From contig JAAEPH010000138.1 of NCBI GenBank assembly GCA_024232855.1, positions 1 through 42,053 of the forward strand: DNA of 42,053 bases, written 5' to 3'. The number at the start of each line of letters is the position of its first letter. The stretch's first letter is position 1. The notes beneath the pieces were generated by a model. It saw only the letters and a program-made list of their open reading frames with translations. It did no database searches and had not been told where the DNA came from. This DNA comes from Gammaproteobacteria bacterium. Its GTDB lineage: Bacteria; Pseudomonadota; Gammaproteobacteria; GCA-001735895. The position numbers and the translations under genes are program-made. Shown here in pieces: positions 4,096 through 31,485 of this stretch.

Positions 4096-4127
4096 GGCCT
4101 GACCCACCCAGGGGTCAGGCCATTTTT
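4096..4127 (+). terminator. Rho-independent terminator between aepX and aepV
   Basis: A perfect 10-bp stem (GGCCTGACCC at 4096-4105, GGGTCAGGCC at 4112-4121) with a 6-nt loop is followed by ATTTTTG. This is a textbook intrinsic terminator on the + strand. It lies downstream of aepX and about 55 bp before aepV. It could end the binding-protein transcript while letting a fraction read through, or it could mark the start of a separate aepV-aepW transcript. Confidence 0.8.
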
Positions 4128-17950: not shown

Positions 17951-19393
17951 ATGGACTCTCCCATGATCACCCGGCATGAAAAAATGCGTATCGCAGGCAA
18001 ACTCGTCGATGGCGATACCGGTAAAAACATCGAGGTATTGAATCCCTACAACGGCGAGGTGGTCGGCGCCGTGCCGCGTGCGAGTCGTGAGCAGGTCGCC
18101 GGCGCCTTCGAAATTGCCGCCAACTACAAACCCCGGTTGACGCGTTACCAGCGCCAGCAAATCCTGCTCAGGACCGCCGAGATCATCGTCTCGCGCCGCG
18201 ACGAGATTTCCGACCTGATTACGGCCGAGAGCGGGCTCAGTAAAAAGGACAGCCTGTATGAGGTTGGACGCGCCTTCGATGTGTACAGTCTCGCGGGTCA
18301 ACTGTGCATCAACGACGACAGCCAGGTCTTCTCCTGTGACCTGACGCCGCACGGCAAGCAACGCAAGATTTTCACGCAACGCGATCCGCTGCTGGGCGCG
18401 ATTTCGGCGATCACACCGTTCAATCATCCGCTCAACATGATTTCGCACAAGATCGCGCCTTCGATCGCGACCAATAACTGCATGGTCGCTAAACCGACCG
18501 AACAGACGCCGCTGACTGCGCTGCTTCTGGCCGACATTCTTTACGAGGCGGGGTTGCCACCGCAAATGTTATCGATTGTTACCGGATTACCTGCCGATAT
18601 GGGCGACGAAATGCTGACCAACCGGCATATTGATCTGGTTACTTTTACCGGCAGTGTTGGCGTCGGAAAGTATATTGCCGAAACCGCCGGCTATCGCCGA
18701 ACCGTGCTCGAGCTCGGCGGTAACGCCCCATTGATCGTGATGGACGACGCCGACCTCGACAGGGCGGCCGAACTTGCCGTCGCCGGCGGCACCAAGAATT
18801 CCGGGCAACGCTGCACCGCGGTCAAGCGCGTGCTGTGCATCGATTCGGTTGCCGATGAGTTTGCCGCACTGGTTGCGGAAAAGGCGGCGAAATTGAAATA
18901 CGGCGACCCGATGGATCCGGATACCGACGTCGGCACCGTCATCAACGAAGCTTCCGCGATCCTCTTTCAGGACCGCGTCAACGACGCCATCGAGAAAGGC
19001 GCCACGCTGTTGTACGGTAACGACCGCCAGGGCGCGGTTTACTCGCCGACGGTGCTCGATCACGTTCCCTTTGACTGCGATCTGGTGCGCGAGGAAACTT
19101 TCGGCCCGCCGATTCCGATCATCCGCGTGAGAGATATCGACCACGCGATCGAGGTTTCAAATTCGACCGCATTCGGGCTTTCATCGGGCGTTTGCACCAA
19201 CCGCATGGACGATATCATTCGTTTTATCAACGAACTCGAAACCGGCACGGTCAACATCTGGGAAGTCCCGGGCTACCGCATCGAAATGTCACCCTTCGGC
19301 GGCATCAAGGATTCCGGTCTCGGCTACAAGGAAGGCGTCATCGAAGCGATGAATTCCTACACCAACGTCAAGACCTTCTCGCTGCCCTGGTAG
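17951..19393 (+). CDS. phnY: Phosphonoacetaldehyde dehydrogenase PhnY
   Basis: PhnY oxidises phosphonoacetaldehyde to phosphonoacetate with NAD. The 480-residue aldehyde dehydrogenase has its general-base glutamate in LELGGNAPL, the catalytic Cys288 in [11 protein letters not shown], the motif [10 protein letters not shown] near the end, and [16 protein letters not shown] at the C-terminus. The family alone would leave the aldehyde open, but the direct link to phnA, phnW and phnX fixes the role with good confidence. The start at 17951 lacks a clear ribosome site, and a second ATG lies at 17963; translation may be coupled to phnA. Confidence 0.9.
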
Positions 19394-19399
19394 TCGTCC

Positions 19400-19458
19400 C
19401 GAAAAGCGTTATCCGGTTATCAGGGGATGACGATTGGTGAGTGGATTAAGGCTTTTCG
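19400..19458. terminator. Possible shared terminator between convergent phnY and phnX
   Basis: CGAAAAGCGTTATCC (19400-19414) and GGATTAAGGCTTTTCG (19443-19458) are near inverted repeats across the 52-bp gap between the two stop codons. The right arm lies in the 3' end of phnX. The A- and T-rich arms could serve transcripts from both sides. Pairing is imperfect and the loop is long. Confidence 0.3.
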
Positions 19459-20294
19459 CCGCGTCTCATGCGCTGCTCTATATCATCAAGGCAGGGGATC
19501 AAATCCGCGATACTGTCAATGACATAGTGCGCACCACGCTGATACATGGTGGGGTAGATGCGGTCACGGTGTTTTTGCTTGACCTCTTCCGTGAAGGAAT
19601 TCCATTCGTCCAGTTGAACCCCGACTTCATTGCCGGAAATAGCCAGACCGATACCCCAGGCACCCGCATTCAATCCTTCCTCGATGCCCGTCAGCGTATC
19701 GTCAATTTTTACCACCGACTGAACCGGTGAAATATCGAGCTCGAGCATGTTGCGCAGCACCATGTGGGGAAATGGGCGGCCGCGTTTGACATCGCCCGCA
19801 CCGAAAGTTGCATCGGGGACATATCCCTGTTTTTCCGCATCGGCCAGATTGATAGCCAACATGCCAGGCAGGTAACCGGAGGTCGAACCGATCTTGTAAC
19901 CCCGTTTACGGCACTCGGCGATCGCTTCGAGAGTACCCGGGATCAATTGCGAATATTCACTCAGGCAGGCTTCCTGCATCGGCACAAAATCATCGAACAT
20001 TCGGCCCACGTCATCGTCTGTCGGCTCGCTGCCGTGCGTCTCAATCCAGCGCCGGCGTACACTGGGGATTTCGCAAATCAATCCAATATGGACTCTTTTG
20101 TGCGCTCCCATCGGAATTCGGGCTTCCTCGAGGCTGATGGGAACACCGGCCTTTTCGAATACCTGCCGGAAAACCACGGCGGGCGCCATGCAACCGAAAT
20201 CCATGGTAGTGCCCGCCCAGTCGAGAATGACACAACGGATTGGACCCTGGTAATTGCGGGTATACGTGAATTCGCGTTCGTAGGTAAATTGCAT
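19446..20294 (-). CDS. phnX: Phosphonoacetaldehyde hydrolase (phosphonatase) PhnX
   Basis: PhnX cleaves phosphonoacetaldehyde to acetaldehyde and phosphate. The 282-residue HAD enzyme has the nucleophile Asp25 in VILDWAGTTMDFG and the Schiff-base Lys66 in the cap motif IPMGAHKRVHI. HAD motif II lies in GSTSGYLPGM, and the metal-binding acid motif is in VVKIDDTLTGIEEG. These mark phosphonatase rather than a general HAD phosphatase. It is convergent to phnY and competes with it for the same substrate. Its promoter should lie in 20295-20400. Confidence 0.95.
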   Translation of the reverse strand: MQFTYEREFTYTRNYQGPIRCVILDWAGTTMDFGCMAPAVVFRQVFEKAGVPISLEEARIPMGAHKRVHIGLICEIPSVRRRWIETHGSEPTDDDVGRMFDDFVPMQEACLSEYSQLIPGTLEAIAECRKRGYKIGSTSGYLPGMLAINLADAEKQGYVPDATFGAGDVKRGRPFPHMVLRNMLELDISPVQSVVKIDDTLTGIEEGLNAGAWGIGLAISGNEVGVQLDEWNSFTEEVKQKHRDRIYPTMYQRGAHYVIDSIADLIPCLDDIEQRMRRGEKP

Positions 20295-23119: not shown

Positions 23120-24424
23120 TCAGCGTTTATCAATCGGCACGTAATCGAGGTCGATCGCGCCATTATACAACTGCCGGGGACGTCCTATTTTAGCCTCGGA
23201 ATCCGTCATCATTTCGTTCCACTGCGAAATCCAGCCAATAGTGCGCGCCATCGCGAAGATGACGGTAAACATGTTCATCGGAATCCCCATCGCCAGAAAG
23301 ATGATTCCCGAGTAAAAGTCCACGTTCGGGTAGAGGTTGCGCTGCACGAAATAATCGTCTTCGAGTGCAACCTTTTCAAGCGCCATCGCCGTTTCCAGTA
23401 ATTTCTGCTGCTCACCGGTAGCCTCCATGTCGTTCAGCAACTTGTGGCATATTTCACGGATCAGCTTGGCGCGCGGATCGTAATTCTTGTACACGCGGTG
23501 CCCAAAGCCCATCAGGCGAAAAGAATCGTTCTTGTCCTTGGCGCGATCGACAAAGGCCTGCAGCGGTTTACCCGACTCGTTGATATCGATGAGCATGCGC
23601 ACCACCGCTTCGTTGGCGCCACCGTGCGCCGGCCCCCACAGCGCGGCAATACCGGAGGCCACCGCGGCAAACGGGTTGGCGTCGGAGCTGCCGGCGAGGC
23701 GCACCGTCGCGGTTGATGCGTTCTGTTCGTGATCGGCATGCAGGATCATGATCAGATCGAGCGCCTTGGCGAGCAATGGATCCGGCGTATAGTCTTCCGA
23801 AGGCATCGAAAACATCATGTACAAGAAATTTTCGGTATAGTTGAGATGATTTCTCGGATAGACAAACGGCTTGCCGTTGGCGTAGCGATAACTCATCGCG
23901 GCGATGGTCGGCATCTTCGCCATCAGTCGATATGCGGTAATCATGCGGTGCTCTTCGTTATGAATATCCATGTGATCGTGATAGAACGCCGCGAGCGCGC
24001 CGACCACGCCAACCATGATCGCCATCGGGTGGGCATCGCGCCGAAAACCCCAGAAAAAGCGGATCATGGCTTCGTGCAGCATGGTGTGATTGGTCACGGT
24101 GGCTTCGAACTCGGCGAGTTCGTCTTGCGACGGCAGGCGGCCGTTCAGCAGCAAGTAGCAGACTTCAAGATAAGAGCTTTGCTCGGCGAGCTGATCGATC
24201 GGGTATCCCCGGTACTGCAGGACCCCCTGGTCGCCATCGAGGAAAGTGATTGCGCTGGAACAGCTCGCCGTCGACATGAAACCGGGGTCGTAAGTAAAGT
24301 AGCCCAGTTCCTTGTAGAGCTTACCGATATCAATGACCCCGGGGCCGGCGGTGGGGATTAAAATCGGTAACTTGACTTCTTTACCGGTGGAGTCGTCGAT
24401 AATGGTTACGGTATCAGTACTCAT
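23120..24424 (-). CDS. gltA: Citrate synthase (type II) GltA
   Basis: Citrate synthase condenses acetyl-CoA and oxaloacetate. The 434-residue protein has the N-terminal domain of the NADH-sensitive hexameric type ([20 protein letters not shown]). The catalytic histidines lie in [10 protein letters not shown] with [10 protein letters not shown], and in [15 protein letters not shown]. The catalytic aspartate lies in the C-terminal segment that includes [10 protein letters not shown]. It is the first gene of a probable gltA-acnB operon and is divergent from the prp operon across 323 bp. It is distinct from the shorter prpC product, which lacks the N-terminal domain. Confidence 0.96.
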
Positions 24425-24671
24425 GGAATATCCTCTATGGTCAAGGTATCTCGGCTAACGGTTTTTCTCTGGTGTTAACGAAGACCAGCCCGGTCAAAGA
24501 CCGGTCTGGCAAGACAACGGTGAGGGCACAATATACCCATTATTGAAGATACCCGCTAACACAGATGACTATTATTGAATTAACTTATCCTGAAAATTAA
24601 TTCTCCAAACCCGCAATACGCCTGGTTTCGGGGCCAGGTCAACAAGGGACAGGCTATTTTCTATCGGCCTT
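24425..24671. other. Divergent intergenic region between gltA and the prp regulator (gltA-proximal part)
   Basis: No gene is seen. A hairpin lies at 24486-24510 (CCAGCCCGGT and ACCGGTCTGG, one mismatch), about 60-85 bp before the gltA start, and a smaller one at 24621-24638 (CCTGG and CCAGG). Neither has a T-tract in a useful orientation. The gltA promoter must lie here, but no clear -35/-10 pair was identified on the minus strand. Confidence 0.4.
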
Positions 24672-24745
24672 ATTGTTGACAATATTAGCAAATAAATGCA
24701 TATTTCAGCCGATATTTGCATATTGGCCCGTCAATTGTTGACAAT
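24672..24745 (+). promoter_or_regulatory. prp promoter with two identical palindromic operators
   Basis: The palindrome ATTGTTGACAAT occurs twice, at 24672-24683 and 24734-24745, 62 bp apart (about six helical turns). The first copy contains TTGACA (24676-24681), a perfect -35 element, with CATATT 17 bp further on as a moderate -10. The second copy ends 2 bp before the ATG of the GntR regulator, leaving no Shine-Dalgarno sequence. FadR-type GntR proteins bind short palindromes of this form, so autoregulation of the prp operon is the natural reading. Confidence 0.65.
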
Positions 24746-24747
24746 TT

Positions 24748-25446
24748 ATGAACGAAACATCGACACCCGCTAACCCTGGCGAAGCACTCGAAGCACCGAC
24801 CCTGGCGCGACGCTGCTTCGAAAGCATCAAGGCCGACGTCATTAGCGGCCAGCTCGCGCAGGGCACCAAAATCGTCGAATCGGACCTCGCCCTGAAGTAC
24901 GGCATCAGCCGCGGCCCGTTGCGCGAGGCCATTCATCGCCTCGAACAAATCAAGCTGGTCGTGCGCATTCCGCACGCCGGTTCGCGCGTGGTAAGGCTCG
25001 ATAGCAAGATGATGGAGGATATCTATATCGCGCGTGAATCGCTGGAAGGCATGGCGGCGAGACTCGCCGCGCGCCTGATGTCGGAGGCCGAGATCAGCGC
25101 CCTGTTGGACCTGCTCGAGGCGCATGCGGACGGCATCGACAAAACCGAAGGCAGGGCCTACTTTCAAAGCGAGGGCGACATCGATTTTCACTACCGTATC
25201 GCGCTTGCCAGCCGCAACCAGTGGATACTGGAAAACCTGCACGGTGAACTCTACCAGCTGATTCGCATGTGCCGTCACCAATCGGGACGCTCCCCGGCGC
25301 GCGCGCAAATCGCGCTCGACCAGCACCGCCAGATCGCGAACGCCATCGCCCGGCGCGACGAAGAGCTGGCAGAAATATTAATGCGGCGTCACATCAGCGG
25401 CGCCTGGGAAACCGTCAGGAAAATACTCGAGGATCAAAATGACTGA
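24748..25446 (+). CDS. GntR-family (FCD domain) regulator of the methylcitrate operon
   Basis: This 232-residue FadR-type regulator has an N-terminal winged HTH at about 22-85 ([18 protein letters not shown], then [20 protein letters not shown]) and an all-helical FCD ligand domain from about residue 90. Conserved Asp/His metal-site positions fall within DIDFHYRI and DQHRQI. It is the first gene of the prp operon and overlaps prpB by 8 bp, so it is translationally coupled. Such GntR proteins replace the sigma-54 activator PrpR in many proteobacteria. Methylcitrate or methylisocitrate would be the expected ligand, by analogy only. No ribosome site precedes the ATG. Confidence 0.88.
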
Positions 25447-26326
25447 AGCACAAACACCCGGCAGCAAACTACGCGCGGCGGTGGCGGCCAACAATCCGCT
25501 ACAGGTCGTCGGCGCGGTTAACGCCTACAACGCGATCATGGCGCAGAAAAGCGGCCACAAGGCGCTTTACCTGTCCGGCGGCGGCGTCGCCGCCTGCTCG
25601 CTCGGCACCCCCGACCTCGGCATCAGCACGCTCGCCGACGTGCTCGAAGACGCGCGCCGCATCACCGATGCGAGCGATCTGCCGCTGCTGGTCGACATCG
25701 ATGTCGGCTGGGGCGGGGCCTTCAACATCGCGCGCTGCATCCGTGAAATGATCCGCACCGACGTCGCCGGCGTCCACATCGAAGACCAGGTCATGCAGAA
25801 GCGCTGCGGTCACCGGCCCAACAAGGCTATCGTTTCCAGCGCGGAAATGGTGGACCGGGTCAAGGCCGCGGTCGATGCGCGCAGCGATGCCGGTTTCGTC
25901 ATCATGGCGCGCACCGACGCACTTGCCGTGGAAGGCATGAATGCCGCGATCGAGCGCGCCCAGGCTTGCGTCGAAGCCGGCGCCGACATGATTTTCCCGG
26001 AAGCCATGACCGAGCTCGAGCAATATCAACAGTTTGTCGAGGCGGTAGGGGTGCCGGTACTCGCAAACATCACCGAATTCGGCGCCACGCCCCTGTTTAG
26101 CAACGAGCAACTGGCCTCGGTCGGGGTCAAGCTTGCGCTATATCCATTGAGCGCGTTTCGCGCGGCGAGCCTGGCGGCGTTAAACGTATACCGTCACATT
26201 CTCAGCGACGGCACCCAGCAAAACGTAGTCGATAGCATGCAGACCCGCATGGAACTGTATGACTTTCTCGACTACCACGATTACGAACAAACCCTGGATA
26301 AATTATTTGACGAGGAATCATCATGA
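25439..26326 (+). CDS. prpB: 2-methylisocitrate lyase PrpB
   Basis: PrpB cleaves 2-methylisocitrate to pyruvate and succinate, the last step of the methylcitrate cycle. The 295-residue protein is a PEP mutase/isocitrate lyase family TIM barrel. The lyase loop motif is [16 protein letters not shown] near residue 115, with the catalytic Cys. Metal-binding acids are in [11 protein letters not shown] and in the [12 protein letters not shown] strand. It overlaps the regulator gene by 8 bp and prpC by 4 bp (ATGA). Confidence 0.96.
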
Positions 26327-27471
26327 CTGAAGCGCCCGCATTCAAACCCAAAAAGTCGGTCGCGCTGTCGGGAACGGCAGCCGGCAACACAGCTATCTGC
26401 ACGGTCGGCAAGACCGGCAACGACCTGCACTACCGGGGGTACGACATTCTCGATATCGCCGAACAGTGCGAATTCGAGGAAATCGCCTACCTGATCATTC
26501 ATGAAAAACTGCCCACCCGGGACGAGCTGGACGCCTACAAGGCCCGCCTCAAGGCGTTGCGCGATGTCCCGCACGAAGTAAAAACCGTGCTCGAACAACT
26601 GCCTTCCAGCACGCATCCAATGGACGTGCTGCGCACCGGCTGTTCGGCGTTCGGCTGCCTGGAACCCGAGGGTGCGATCAGCGATTACGACGCGACGCGC
26701 GCGATCATCGACCGCCTGATGGCGAGCTTCGGCTCGATGCTGACCTACTGGTATCACTACAGCCATCACGGCAAGCGCATCGACCTGGTCACCGACGACG
26801 ATTCCATCGGCGGTCATTTTCTGCACCTGCTACACGGCAAGCCGGCGCCCGAATCCTGGGTCAAGGCAATGCACATATCGCTGATCCTCTACGCCGAGCA
26901 CGAATTCAATGCGTCGACCTTCACCGGGCGCGTGGTGGCCGGCACCAATTCCGATATCTACTCGTGCATGACCGCCGCGATCGGCGCATTGCGCGGCCCC
27001 AAGCACGGGGGCGCCAACGAGGAAGCCTTTCGCATCCAGTCGCGCTACAGCTCGGCGGACGAGGCCGAAACCGATATTCGCGAACGCGTCGCCAACAAGG
27101 AAATCGTCATCGGCTTCGGCCACCCCGTGTACACCATCAGCGACCCGCGTAACGAGGTCATCAAGCGCGTGGCGCGCGATCTGTCCGCGGAAAACGACGA
27201 CATGCTGATGTACGACGTTGCCGAGCGCCTGGAAACGGTCATGTGGGATCTGAAAAACATGTTCCCGAACCTCGACTGGTTCTCCGCCGTCTCCTATCAC
27301 CGGATGGGCGTGCCCACCGACATGTTCACGCCGCTGTTCGTGATCGCGCGTACCACCGGCTGGGGCGCGCACGTGGTCGAGCAACGCCAGGACGGCAAGA
27401 TCATCCGCCCGTCGGCCAACTACACCGGTCCGGAAAACCTCGAATTCGTTCCAATCGAGGATCGAGCTTGA
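26323..27471 (+). CDS. prpC: 2-methylcitrate synthase PrpC
   Basis: PrpC condenses propionyl-CoA with oxaloacetate. The 382-residue protein lacks the N-terminal domain of GltA, as usual for PrpC. It has the PrpC-like start [20 protein letters not shown] and the RGYDILDIA motif. Catalytic residues lie in [26 protein letters not shown] and the [15 protein letters not shown] segment. It overlaps the end of prpB by 4 bp. After it comes a 223-bp gap holding a repeat before acnD. Confidence 0.96.
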
Positions 27472-27694: not shown

Positions 27695-30298
27695 ATGAAT
27701 ACGGAATATCGCACCAACCTGTCCGAAACCGGTTCCGGCAGTCACCTGGACTACTTCGATACCCGTGCCGCGATCGACTCGATCGCAGCGGGCGCATACG
27801 ATCGCCTGCCCTACACGGCGCGCGTGCTGGCCGAAAACCTGGTGCGACGCTGCGACCCCGCCAATCTCGAAGCTGCGCTAGGGCAAATCGTCGAATGCCG
27901 ACGCGACCTGGATTTCCCCTGGTACCCGGCGCGCGTGGTCTGCCACGACATTCTCGGCCAGACCGCGCTGGTCGATCTGGCCGGCCTGCGCGATGCGATC
28001 GCCGATCAGGGTGGCGACCCGGCGCGTGTCAACCCGGTGGTGCCAACCCAGCTCATCGTCGATCACTCGCTCGCCGTCGAGCATGCCGGCTTCGACCCGG
28101 AAGCCTTCGACAAGAACCGCGCGATCGAGGACCGCCGCAACGCGGACCGCTTCGATTTCATCGACTGGACCCGCAGCGCCTTCGAGAACGTCGACGTAAT
28201 CCCGGCCGGGAACGGCATCATGCACCAGATCAACCTCGAGAAAATGTCGCCGGTGATCCAGACACGCGACGGTGTGGCATTTCCGGACACCTGTGTCGGT
28301 ACCGACAGCCACACACCTCACATCGATTGCCTCGGCGTGATCGCGATCGGTGTGGGCGGTCTCGAAGCCGAAACCGTCATGCTCGGCCGGCCATCGATGA
28401 TGCGCCTGCCCGACATCGTCGGCGTGCGCCTCAGCGGACGGCGCCAACCCGGCATCACCGCGACCGATATCGTGCTCGCGCTGACCGAGTTCCTGCGCGA
28501 TGCGCGCGTCGTCTCCGCCTGGCTCGAGTTTTTCGGCGACGGCGCCGCCGGCCTCACCATTGGCGACCGCGCTACAATCTCCAACATGGCACCCGAATAC
28601 GGCGCCTCGGCGGCAATGTTTTACATCGACGAACAAACCATCGATTACCTGAAACTAACCGGCCGTGACGCCGAACAGGTGGCGCTGGTGGAAAACTATG
28701 CCCGTACCACCGGCCTGTGGGCAGACAGCCTGCAACAAGCCGAGTATGAGCGCGTGCTCGAATTCGACCTTAGCAAAGTCGAGCGTAATCTCGCCGGCCC
28801 GTCCAACCCGCACCGGCGCCTGCCGACCGCGCAACTCGCCGCGCGCGGCGTTGCCGGCGAGTGGGTGGAAGCGCCCGGGGAAATGCCCGATGGCGCGGTC
28901 ATCATCGCCGCAATCACCAGTTGCACCAATACCAGCAACCCGCGCAACGTCGTCGCCGCTGCGCTGGTCGCGCAAAAGGCCAACGCGCTCGGCCTCACGC
29001 GTAAGCCCTGGGTCAAGTCTTCCTTCGCGCCGGGTTCGAAGGTCGCGCGGCTCTACCTCGATGAAGCCGGCCTGCTGGGCGAGCTAGAGCAACTCGGCTT
29101 TGGCATCGTCGCCTATGCCTGCACCACCTGCAACGGCATGAGCGGTGCTCTCGATCCCGCAATCCAGCAGGAAATCATCGAACGCGACCTGTACACCACG
29201 GCAATGTTGTCTGGAAACCGCAACTTCGACGGCCGCATTCACCCCTACGCGAAGCAGGCCTTCCTCGCCTCGCCTCCGCTGGTCGTGGCCTACGCGATCG
29301 CCGGCACGGTGCGCTTCGACATCGAACAGGACGCGCTCGGTTACGATGCCGACGGCAAGCCGGTAACGCTCAAGGACATCTGGCCGCGCGACGCCGAAAT
29401 CGACGCCATCGTCGCCGCGCACGTGCGCCCCGAGCAATTCAACCAGGTGTATGATCCGATGTTCGACCTGGGACAGGTCGAGGCGGCAAAGAGCCCGCTG
29501 TACGACTGGCAACCGCAGTCGACCTATATCCGCCGCCCGCCCTACTGGGAAGGCGCGCTCGCCGGGGAACGTGCGCTAAGCGGCATGCGCCCGCTGGCCG
29601 TGCTCGGCGACAACATCACCACCGACCACCTGTCGCCGTCCAACGCGATCCTCGCGTCGAGCGCGGCCGGTGAGTACCTCGCCAAAATGGGCCTGCCCGA
29701 GGAAGACTTCAATTCCTACGCGACCCACCGCGGCGACCACCTGACCGCGCAGCGCGCGACCTTCGCCAACCCCAAGTTGCTGAACGAAATGGTGACCGAG
29801 AACGGCGAAGTGCGACAAGGTTCGCTCGCCCGCATCGAGCCGGAGGGCGAGGTGGCGCGCATGTGGGAAGCGATCGAGACCTACATGGCGCGCGCGCAAC
29901 CGCTGATCATCGTCGCCGGCGCCGACTACGGACAGGGATCGTCACGCGACTGGGCCGCCAAGGGCGTGCGCCTCGCCGGCGTCGAGGCCATCGTCGCCGA
30001 GGGCTTCGAGCGCATCCACCGCACCAACCTGGTCGGCATGGGCGTGCTGCCGCTGGAATTCAAGGCCGGCGAGACACGCCAGACCTACGCGATCAACGGC
30101 AGCGAAATCTTCGACGTCGTCGGCGAGCGCAAGCCCGGCGCCGAGCTGACCGTGATCATGCAGCGGCGCGACGGCGAACGCGTCGAAATTCCGGTGACCT
30201 GCCGCCTCGACACCGCCGACGAAGTGTCGGTTTACGAGGCGGGTGGCGTGCTACAGCGCTTCGCCCAGGATTTCCTCGAGGCCGGGGCGGCGGCATGA
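27695..30298 (+). CDS. acnD: Fe-S-dependent 2-methylcitrate dehydratase AcnD
   Basis: AcnD dehydrates 2-methylcitrate to a 2-methylaconitate isomer that needs PrpF to proceed. The 867-residue protein is of the AcnA class. Cluster cysteines are in ITSCTNTSNPRN and YACTTCNGMSGALDP; the latter form is typical of AcnD as opposed to AcnA, which usually has GCTTCIG. The swivel domain motif GADYGQGSSRDWAAKG is present near the C-terminus. The stop overlaps the prpF start (ATGA). It replaces the PrpD enzyme of enteric bacteria. Confidence 0.95.
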   Translation: MNTEYRTNLSETGSGSHLDYFDTRAAIDSIAAGAYDRLPYTARVLAENLVRRCDPANLEAALGQIVECRRDLDFPWYPARVVCHDILGQTALVDLAGLRDAIADQGGDPARVNPVVPTQLIVDHSLAVEHAGFDPEAFDKNRAIEDRRNADRFDFIDWTRSAFENVDVIPAGNGIMHQINLEKMSPVIQTRDGVAFPDTCVGTDSHTPHIDCLGVIAIGVGGLEAETVMLGRPSMMRLPDIVGVRLSGRRQPGITATDIVLALTEFLRDARVVSAWLEFFGDGAAGLTIGDRATISNMAPEYGASAAMFYIDEQTIDYLKLTGRDAEQVALVENYARTTGLWADSLQQAEYERVLEFDLSKVERNLAGPSNPHRRLPTAQLAARGVAGEWVEAPGEMPDGAVIIAAITSCTNTSNPRNVVAAALVAQKANALGLTRKPWVKSSFAPGSKVARLYLDEAGLLGELEQLGFGIVAYACTTCNGMSGALDPAIQQEIIERDLYTTAMLSGNRNFDGRIHPYAKQAFLASPPLVVAYAIAGTVRFDIEQDALGYDADGKPVTLKDIWPRDAEIDAIVAAHVRPEQFNQVYDPMFDLGQVEAAKSPLYDWQPQSTYIRRPPYWEGALAGERALSGMRPLAVLGDNITTDHLSPSNAILASSAAGEYLAKMGLPEEDFNSYATHRGDHLTAQRATFANPKLLNEMVTENGEVRQGSLARIEPEGEVARMWEAIETYMARAQPLIIVAGADYGQGSSRDWAAKGVRLAGVEAIVAEGFERIHRTNLVGMGVLPLEFKAGETRQTYAINGSEIFDVVGERKPGAELTVIMQRRDGERVEIPVTCRLDTADEVSVYEAGGVLQRFAQDFLEAGAAA

Positions 30299-31485
30299 GC
30301 GCACAAGCGCAAATCCGTATTCCCGCAACCTACATTCGCGGCGGCACCAGCAAGGGCGTATTCTTCAGGCTCGACGACCTGCCCGAGGCGGCACGGGTTC
30401 CGGGTGAAGCACGCGACAAGCTGCTGTTGCGCGTCATCGGCAGTCCCGACCCCTACGGCAAGCACACCGACGGTATGGGCGGCGCGACTTCCAGCACCAG
30501 CAAGACCGTGGTCCTGTCGAAAAGCTCGCAACCCGATCACGACGTCGACTACCTGTTCGGCCAGGTCGCGATCGACCGGGCGTTCGTCGACTGGAGCGGT
30601 AACTGCGGCAATCTCACCGCCGCGGTCGGCGCCTTCGCGATCTCCGGCGGGCTAGTCGACGCGGATCGAATTCCGCGCGACGGCGTCGCCGAGGTACGCA
30701 TATGGCAGGCCAATATCGGCAAAACCATCGTCGCCCACGTGCCGATGACCGATGGCGAGGTGCAGGAAACCGGCGACTTCGAACTCGACGGCGTGACCTT
30801 CCCGGCAGCCGAGGTGTGCATCGAGTTTCTCGATCCGGCAGATGCAACGGGCGCGATGTTCCCGACCGGCAGCCTCGTCGACATGCTCGAACTGCCGCAA
30901 GAACTGGTTGCTGCAGGCAGTTTGCAAGCGACCATGATCAACGCCGGCATTCCAACGATCTTCCTGAACGCCGCCGACCTCGGTTACAGCGGTTGCGAAT
31001 TGCAGGAGGCGATAAACGGCGATCCGGCGGTGCTAAGGCGCTTTGAGCAAATCCGCGCCTACGGAGCACTGCGCATGGGCCTGATCGACGATCTCGAGCA
31101 GGCCGCCGATCGGCAGCACACGCCCAAGGTCGCTTTCGTCGCGCCTCCCGCGGATTACATCGCCTCGAGCGGCAAGCCGATCTCCTCCGCGGACATCGAT
31201 CTCAACGTGCGCGCGCTGTCGATGGGCAAGCTGCATCACGCGATGATGGGCACCGCCGCGGTCGCGATCGCCACCGCGGCAGCGATTCCGGGCACCCTGG
31301 TGAACCTCGCCGCCGGCGGCGGCGAGCGCAACGCGGTGCGCTTCGGCCATCCTTCGGGCACGCTCAGGGTCGGCGCCGCTGCCGCGCGGCGCGACGGCGA
31401 ATGGGCCGTCGAAAAAGTCGTCATGAGCCGCAGCGCGCGCGTGCTGATGGAAGGCTGGGTACGCATCCCGGGCGACGCATTTTAG
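30295..31485 (+). CDS. prpF: 2-methylaconitate cis-trans isomerase PrpF
   Basis: PrpF isomerises the AcnD product to cis-2-methylaconitate so that an aconitase can hydrate it. The 396-residue protein starts with the family motif IPATYIRGGTSKGVFFRLDD. It also has GMGGATSSTSKTVVLS, the WSGNCGNLTAAVGAFAI cysteine site and GHPSGTLRVGA near the end. The open frame extends upstream into acnD, but ATG 30295 overlaps the acnD stop by 4 bp and gives the normal length. It is the last gene of the operon. Confidence 0.95.
   Translation: MSAQAQIRIPATYIRGGTSKGVFFRLDDLPEAARVPGEARDKLLLRVIGSPDPYGKHTDGMGGATSSTSKTVVLSKSSQPDHDVDYLFGQVAIDRAFVDWSGNCGNLTAAVGAFAISGGLVDADRIPRDGVAEVRIWQANIGKTIVAHVPMTDGEVQETGDFELDGVTFPAAEVCIEFLDPADATGAMFPTGSLVDMLELPQELVAAGSLQATMINAGIPTIFLNAADLGYSGCELQEAINGDPAVLRRFEQIRAYGALRMGLIDDLEQAADRQHTPKVAFVAPPADYIASSGKPISSADIDLNVRALSMGKLHHAMMGTAAVAIATAAAIPGTLVNLAAGGGERNAVRFGHPSGTLRVGAAAARRDGEWAVEKVVMSRSARVLMEGWVRIPGDAF

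Follow-up and report, generated by a model that had tools for sequence, protein, structure and literature searches.

Two exact copies of a 12-nt sequence, ATTGTTGACAAT, lie 62 bp apart from start to start (5.9 turns at 10.5 bp) and flank a sigma70-type promoter of the GntR/FCD regulator gene prpR in the 42,053-nucleotide stretch of gammaproteobacterial DNA analysed here (the window; Table 1). PrpR probably represses its own operon through both sites, which would share one face of the helix, by looping or by cooperative bending of the DNA, with operator 2 replacing the Shine-Dalgarno (SD) sequence of prpR. The observation is confirmed, its new part being the geometry of the pair, and our genome comparisons extend it beyond what was first claimed.

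Table 1 Features of the prpR region, in window coordinates.
Feature	Position	Strand	Remarks
Operator 1	24672–24683	+	exact ATTGTTGACAAT; contains the -35 hexamer
-35 hexamer TTGACA	24676–24681	+	inside operator 1; kept in 25/25 orthologs
-10 hexamer CATATT	24699–24704	+	17 bp after -35; same in 23/25 orthologs
Inferred 5' leader, ~37 nt	24711–24747	+	without Shine-Dalgarno; inferred from promoter position
Operator 2	24734–24745	+	exact ATTGTTGACAAT; ~+24 to +35 of inferred transcript; in the Shine-Dalgarno place
prpR, GntR/FCD regulator, 232 aa	24748–25446	+	Pfam GntR and FCD, both above cut-off
prpB, methylisocitrate lyase	25439–26326	+	NCBIfam equivalog above cut-off
prpC, 2-methylcitrate synthase	26323–27471	+	NCBIfam PRK12351 above cut-off
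acnD, Fe/S-dependent dehydratase of methylcitrate cycle	27695–30298	+	TIGR02333 above cut-off
prpF, 2-methylaconitate isomerase	30289–31485	+	TIGR02334 above cut-off; left end is that of the scanned frame
gltA, divergent citrate synthase	23120–24424	-	NCBIfam above cut-off; start 247 bp from operator 1

Twin operators at the prpR promoter

The sequence-only reading had described identical 12-bp palindromes, one overlapping a perfect -35 box and the other ending 2 bp before the ATG. Both copies are indeed exact, the TTGACA hexamer falls within the first and a gap of 2 bp separates the second from the start codon. Their description as palindromes holds for the 5-bp arms, ATTGT and ACAAT, and not for the TG centre, which is asymmetric and leaves 10 of the 12 bases paired. 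One centre base distinguishes ATTGTTGACAAT from the published PrpR motif, ATTGTCGACAAT. The genome-wide search for the palindrome that had been suggested, including the surroundings of gltA and acnB, recovered ATTGTNNACAAT at nine places on six contigs (reversed pattern, one). Within the window, matches with at most two mismatches occurred besides the pair only at 4122, 12016 and 32148, none of them near gltA or acnB, both of which are encoded on the strand opposite the prp operon, and sites serving either gene within the window were rejected on these grounds. Reversed-pattern controls in the genome, the genus and the class genomes ruled out a chance origin of the pair. TTGACA-17-CATATT was the sole promoter-like match in 24425–24800 (10/12), a match that by itself proves nothing because shuffled sequences average 0.7 matches.

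Same-genus orthologs of PrpR (at least 65% identity) numbered 28, of which 25 had usable upstream DNA; the three left out either end near the gene start (L025 and L034) or are without the stretch from -10 to codon 40 (L035). Both sites were present in all 25, with a spacing of 62 bp in 22 and 63 bp in three. The centre of operator 1 was TG throughout, whereas that of operator 2 varied (TG in 14, TA in five, CG in four and CA in two), as expected if operator 1 doubles as the -35 box. In 24 of the 25 a start codon followed operator 2, after 2 bp (17 orthologs), 3 bp (six) or 1 bp (one). At L028, the prpR of genome G016, the conserved start position carries ATT, with no ATG, GTG or TTG there, possibly a non-canonical start codon; G007, a genome with a listed contamination of 6%, has a pair identical to that of L028 in operator and spacer sequence.

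The regulator and its operon

The locus has the makeup of a GntR-type PrpR/PmiR regulon, with prpR heading prpR-prpB-prpC-acnD-prpF, a product combining GntR and FCD domains, and upstream operators of the ATTGTCGACAAT type, here two sites with one centre base changed. The best PDB match of PrpR was 7xp0 (7xp0/7xp1, E 6e-61), which we take to be the P. aeruginosa PmiR structure. PmiR (PA0797) is said, according to the title of Cui 2022, to sense 2-methylisocitrate. The attribution of the sites to the GntR protein of the prp operon, already made from the sequence, is strongly supported by the best structure match, by the published motif and by the 25 of 25 usable same-genus orthologs, and the sites are in all likelihood its operators.

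Operator spacing in the genus and beyond

Across 31 same-genus genomes, 50 exact pairs were found at 38–68 bp, against none for the reversed pattern (51 bp, three pairs; 52 bp, four; 62 bp, 28; 63 bp, 15), and a single pair, at 73 bp, in the 69–99 bp range, so that all 51 exact pairs at 38–99 bp stood 51, 52, 62, 63 or 73 bp apart, that is, five, six or seven turns. The neighbours of 26 of the 50 were examined, and all of these pairs preceded prpR or a PrpR paralog, prpE, acnD or a ligase gene. One acyl-CoA-ligase gene carries its pair at 62, 63 and 73 bp in three genus genomes, and prpE pairs keep 62–63 bp with operator 2 at 55–70 bp from the matched start.

In 340 genomes of the class, exact pairs at 50–80 bp numbered 22 (reversed control, two), with 18 at 51, 62, 63 or 73 bp and the rest at 55, 65, 71 and 78 bp, and no exact pair was detected at 20–49 bp or 81–111 bp; one class genome held four pairs, all at 62 bp. 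A broader scan of named genomes for exact pairs at 50–80 bp yielded 82 pairs at 80 readable loci out of at least 119. Among the loci listed, 53 of the 82 were prpR-linked, meaning that a PrpR homolog with an identity of 38% or more lay no further than 200 bp away, and 47 of these 53 fell at 51–53, 62–63 or 73–74 bp, where 12 would be expected under a uniform distribution; the remaining six were at 60, 61, 66, 69, 71 and 72 bp. When each combination of genus and spacing was counted once (37 rows among the loci listed, one Marinomonas row being double), the prpR-linked pairs gave a resultant length R of 0.82 at 10.5 bp, a value reached by none of 100,000 uniform draws, and the 28 other pairs among the loci listed gave an R of 0.04, that is, no helical phasing. 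Loci of prpR, prpE and acnD have such pairs in different genera.

Selecting loci by protein, and not by operator pair, gave 26 new ones, from 41 matches (40 of the 369 genomes of the class). Two good sites (at least 9/10 matches) 51–75 bp apart were present at 16 of them, 13 at 51, 53, 62 or 63 bp and the others at 64, 71 and 75 bp, and a weaker second site (8/10) was found at 52–63 bp in four. The remaining loci had a pair at 116 bp, a single exact site or a lone 8/10 site (one each), or no site with at least 8/10 matches (three). In G176, without a site at prpR, a pair at 62 bp lies about 2 kb from that gene. On a PrpR tree of 75 rows, a quick, long-branched and weakly rooted one that left out rows without a pair, the spacing class changes at least nine times, and 72 of the 75 rows fall in the whole-turn classes of 51–53, 61–64 or 71–75 bp, bins that cover 12 of the 31 possible spacings. 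With the exceptions listed, the spacing is that of phased operator pairs, a whole number of turns. The phase is kept across lineages despite a differing offset of the best-scoring promoter from operator 1 (+4 here, +16/17 in others, with +17 in Alcanivorax and Acinetobacter, +25/26 at several 52- or 73-bp loci and elsewhere in others), promoter places outside this genus being rough guesses because their scores barely exceed those of shuffled spacers (sigma70 score between operators 8.28 vs 7.84 of 12; higher in 30 of 47).

Translation of prpR

The earlier remark that prpR has no ribosome site is backed by the sequence. Before its ATG there is no SD pairing at all (+0.7 kcal/mol); of the 28 uncurated starts in the window whose upstream stretch is complete, none pairs more weakly, and two more gave +0.1 and +0.6. 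Orthologs lie above zero in 24 of 25 cases, the remaining one at -2.7, and an SD-like sequence precedes each of prpB, prpC and acnD (-5.9, -5.9 and -9.4 kcal/mol). Leaderless and SD-independent initiation had both been considered. Initiation is likely to be SD-independent, on a leader of about 37 nt, and leaderless translation of prpR is unlikely. Transcription from the ATG itself, with operator 2 overlapping the core promoter, would fit the missing SD and the operator abutting the ATG, as well as the operator-to-ATG gap of 0 bp at seven Acinetobacter loci and one Azotobacter locus, but such an mRNA is very improbable, since TTGACA-17-CATATT, which is conserved, would place the start some 37 nt upstream and nothing resembling a -10 lies 7–12 bp before the ATG, the stretch taken up by operator 2. 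The leader with the first codons was no more stable than shuffled sequences (z 0.40), which led us to discard a structured leader or a hairpin at operator 2.

A usable ATG was available for 46 prpR-linked pairs, and in 22 of these operator 2 overlaps the ATG or is at most 5 bp away from it. Mean SD energy was -0.75 kcal/mol at these 22 loci vs -2.5 at 23 loci with a gap of at least 10 bp. A weak AGAG is retained before the operator at the seven Acinetobacter loci (-2.9 kcal/mol), and several long-gap prpR loci are likewise without an SD. Loss of the SD depends on lineage, seems to follow from operator placement and is not a required part of the switch.

Proposed repression through both sites

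Taking together the sites, the conserved promoter, the spacing rule and the absence of an SD, we propose the following for binding, cooperativity, induction and translation. PrpR would occupy operator 1, over the -35 hexamer, as well as operator 2 downstream of the transcription start, both on the same face of the helix, and would bridge them in a short loop or wrap, for example as a dimer of dimers, or bend the DNA cooperatively; an intermediate of the methylcitrate cycle would release it. With operator 2 in the SD place, prpR would be translated without SD pairing from its AU-rich leader, which perhaps keeps the regulator at a low level. That relatives mostly keep their pairs whole turns apart suggests a repressor gripping both sites together, and the constant phase between operators points to a protein doing so from one helix face, so that a bridging or cooperatively bending PrpR would be the simplest reading; the phasing could also serve contacts with RNA polymerase. 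For the looping that the sequence-only reading had entertained, whole-turn spacing across genes and lineages offers indirect support.

Two operators acting without contact, operator 1 blocking the -35 box and operator 2 serving as a roadblock, would also account for the fixed position of both sites around one promoter in this genus, and either site by itself could repress. The spacing would then reflect promoter geometry, which makes this arrangement unlikely: the promoter offset varies by lineage, on rough promoter calls, with the spacing remaining whole-turn, prpE pairs hold their spacing though operator 2 is distant from the matched start, and the acyl-CoA-ligase gene combines three spacings. 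It is harder still to see the sites as serving mainly another regulator or the divergent gltA. The motif may be common to other GntR proteins, and ATTGTTAACAAT precedes another GntR-like gene in the genome, but the pair frames the prpR promoter, such pairs recur with prpR, prpE and acnD from genus to genus, and other proteins of the genome reach at most 31% identity to PrpR among the matches listed, all of which renders this explanation extremely improbable.

Repression by a PrpR that bridges or bends both operators may extend further. We suggest only tentatively, as a possibility that falls short of probable, that gammaproteobacterial PrpR proteins generally act by short-range looping over five, six or seven turns (52, 62–63 or 73 bp) throughout their regulon, the operator replacing the SD of many prpR genes and weakening translation of the repressor. 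If so, one DNA element would both set repression and keep repressor translation weak, and a propionate-catabolism regulator would form loops of about 52–73 bp, very short by comparison with natural repression loops. In the lac and gal repressor loops, too, the effect of an operator pair depends on the helical phase of its spacing; the protein family there is unrelated and the spacing usually longer. The whole-turn rule in several regulon genes and many genera predicts that 5-bp insertions would weaken repression and 10-bp insertions would not. The operator in the SD place nicely illustrates how regulation at the DNA level can constrain translation.

Relation to known regulators

The PrpR regulator and its motif were already known (PMC9765439, PMC4494728, PMC3223726). 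In P. aeruginosa, PrpR (PA0797, PmiR) is likewise a GntR/FCD protein heading the prp operon and repressing it; it is reported to be a repressor of the methylcitrate cycle and to bind the prpR upstream region by EMSA, with a predicted motif, the 12-nt palindrome ATTGTCGACAAT, 84 bp upstream of prpR (PMC9765439). Unlike that single palindrome, the present locus has two exact, phased sites, one of them at the SD position. PrpR was classed in the FadR subfamily, with a 2-nt centre, in PMC4494728, which, as excerpted, describes weak extra half-sites 7–12 nt from the site centre and not pairs 50–75 bp apart, and a GntR-type PrpR was predicted in Shewanella (PMC3223726). Atu1419 of Agrobacterium fabrum (VanR group; 6z74 was among the PDB sequence matches) is also an FCD protein with two palindromes at its target, and its tetramer was observed by EM to loop DNA, a precedent for the bridging of two sites, but its sites lie 190 bp apart, palindrome and effector differ, and the account as excerpted describes no phasing rule (PMC7797058). 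E. coli LldR, another GntR-family protein, has two boxes in all of its binding regions (PMC10272880), but these are 17-bp boxes and the operon is that of lactate. We found no description of a phased PrpR operator pair in the literature, though an earlier mention may exist (Suvorova 2012, Cui 2022), and among the articles containing the 12-mer only PMC9765439 dealt with PrpR, to judge by titles and the beginnings of abstracts.

Further sites in the genome

Operator pairs lie on three contigs of this genome, at prpR (62 bp), at prpE (63 bp, with the ATG 67 bp past the second site) and at an AMP-forming acyl-CoA-ligase-like gene (73 bp, with 3 bp between the second site and the ATG), the latter two genes being named from inspection of their translations. 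The AMP-forming acyl-CoA-synthetase-like gene at L008:460–544 (contig C158), with twin operators 73 bp apart there and 62 and 63 bp apart in two same-genus relatives, is likely an uncharacterised PrpR target. Among the single sites, one precedes another GntR-like gene and two, inside unrelated genes (contigs C31 and C309), look like chance occurrences. At L002:1501–1512, ATTGTTAACAAT stands 52 bp before a GntR-like gene, beside genes whose translations suggest purine degradation, and it recurs near a GntR-like match at three same-genus loci (L051, L055 and L065); it may be the site through which a different regulator, one whose motif is nearly identical, controls its own gene. A PrpR homolog (46–48% identity) is encoded beside acnD and prpF at L070, L106, L119 and L164, with operators 51–52 bp apart, and at the last three the best-scoring -10 overlaps operator 2. 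The matches listed for the genome of the window do not include this homolog. Beside acnB-gltA-prp in the window, the translations at 17951–20294 resemble an aldehyde dehydrogenase and a phosphonoacetaldehyde hydrolase, possibly a phosphonate-degradation cluster.
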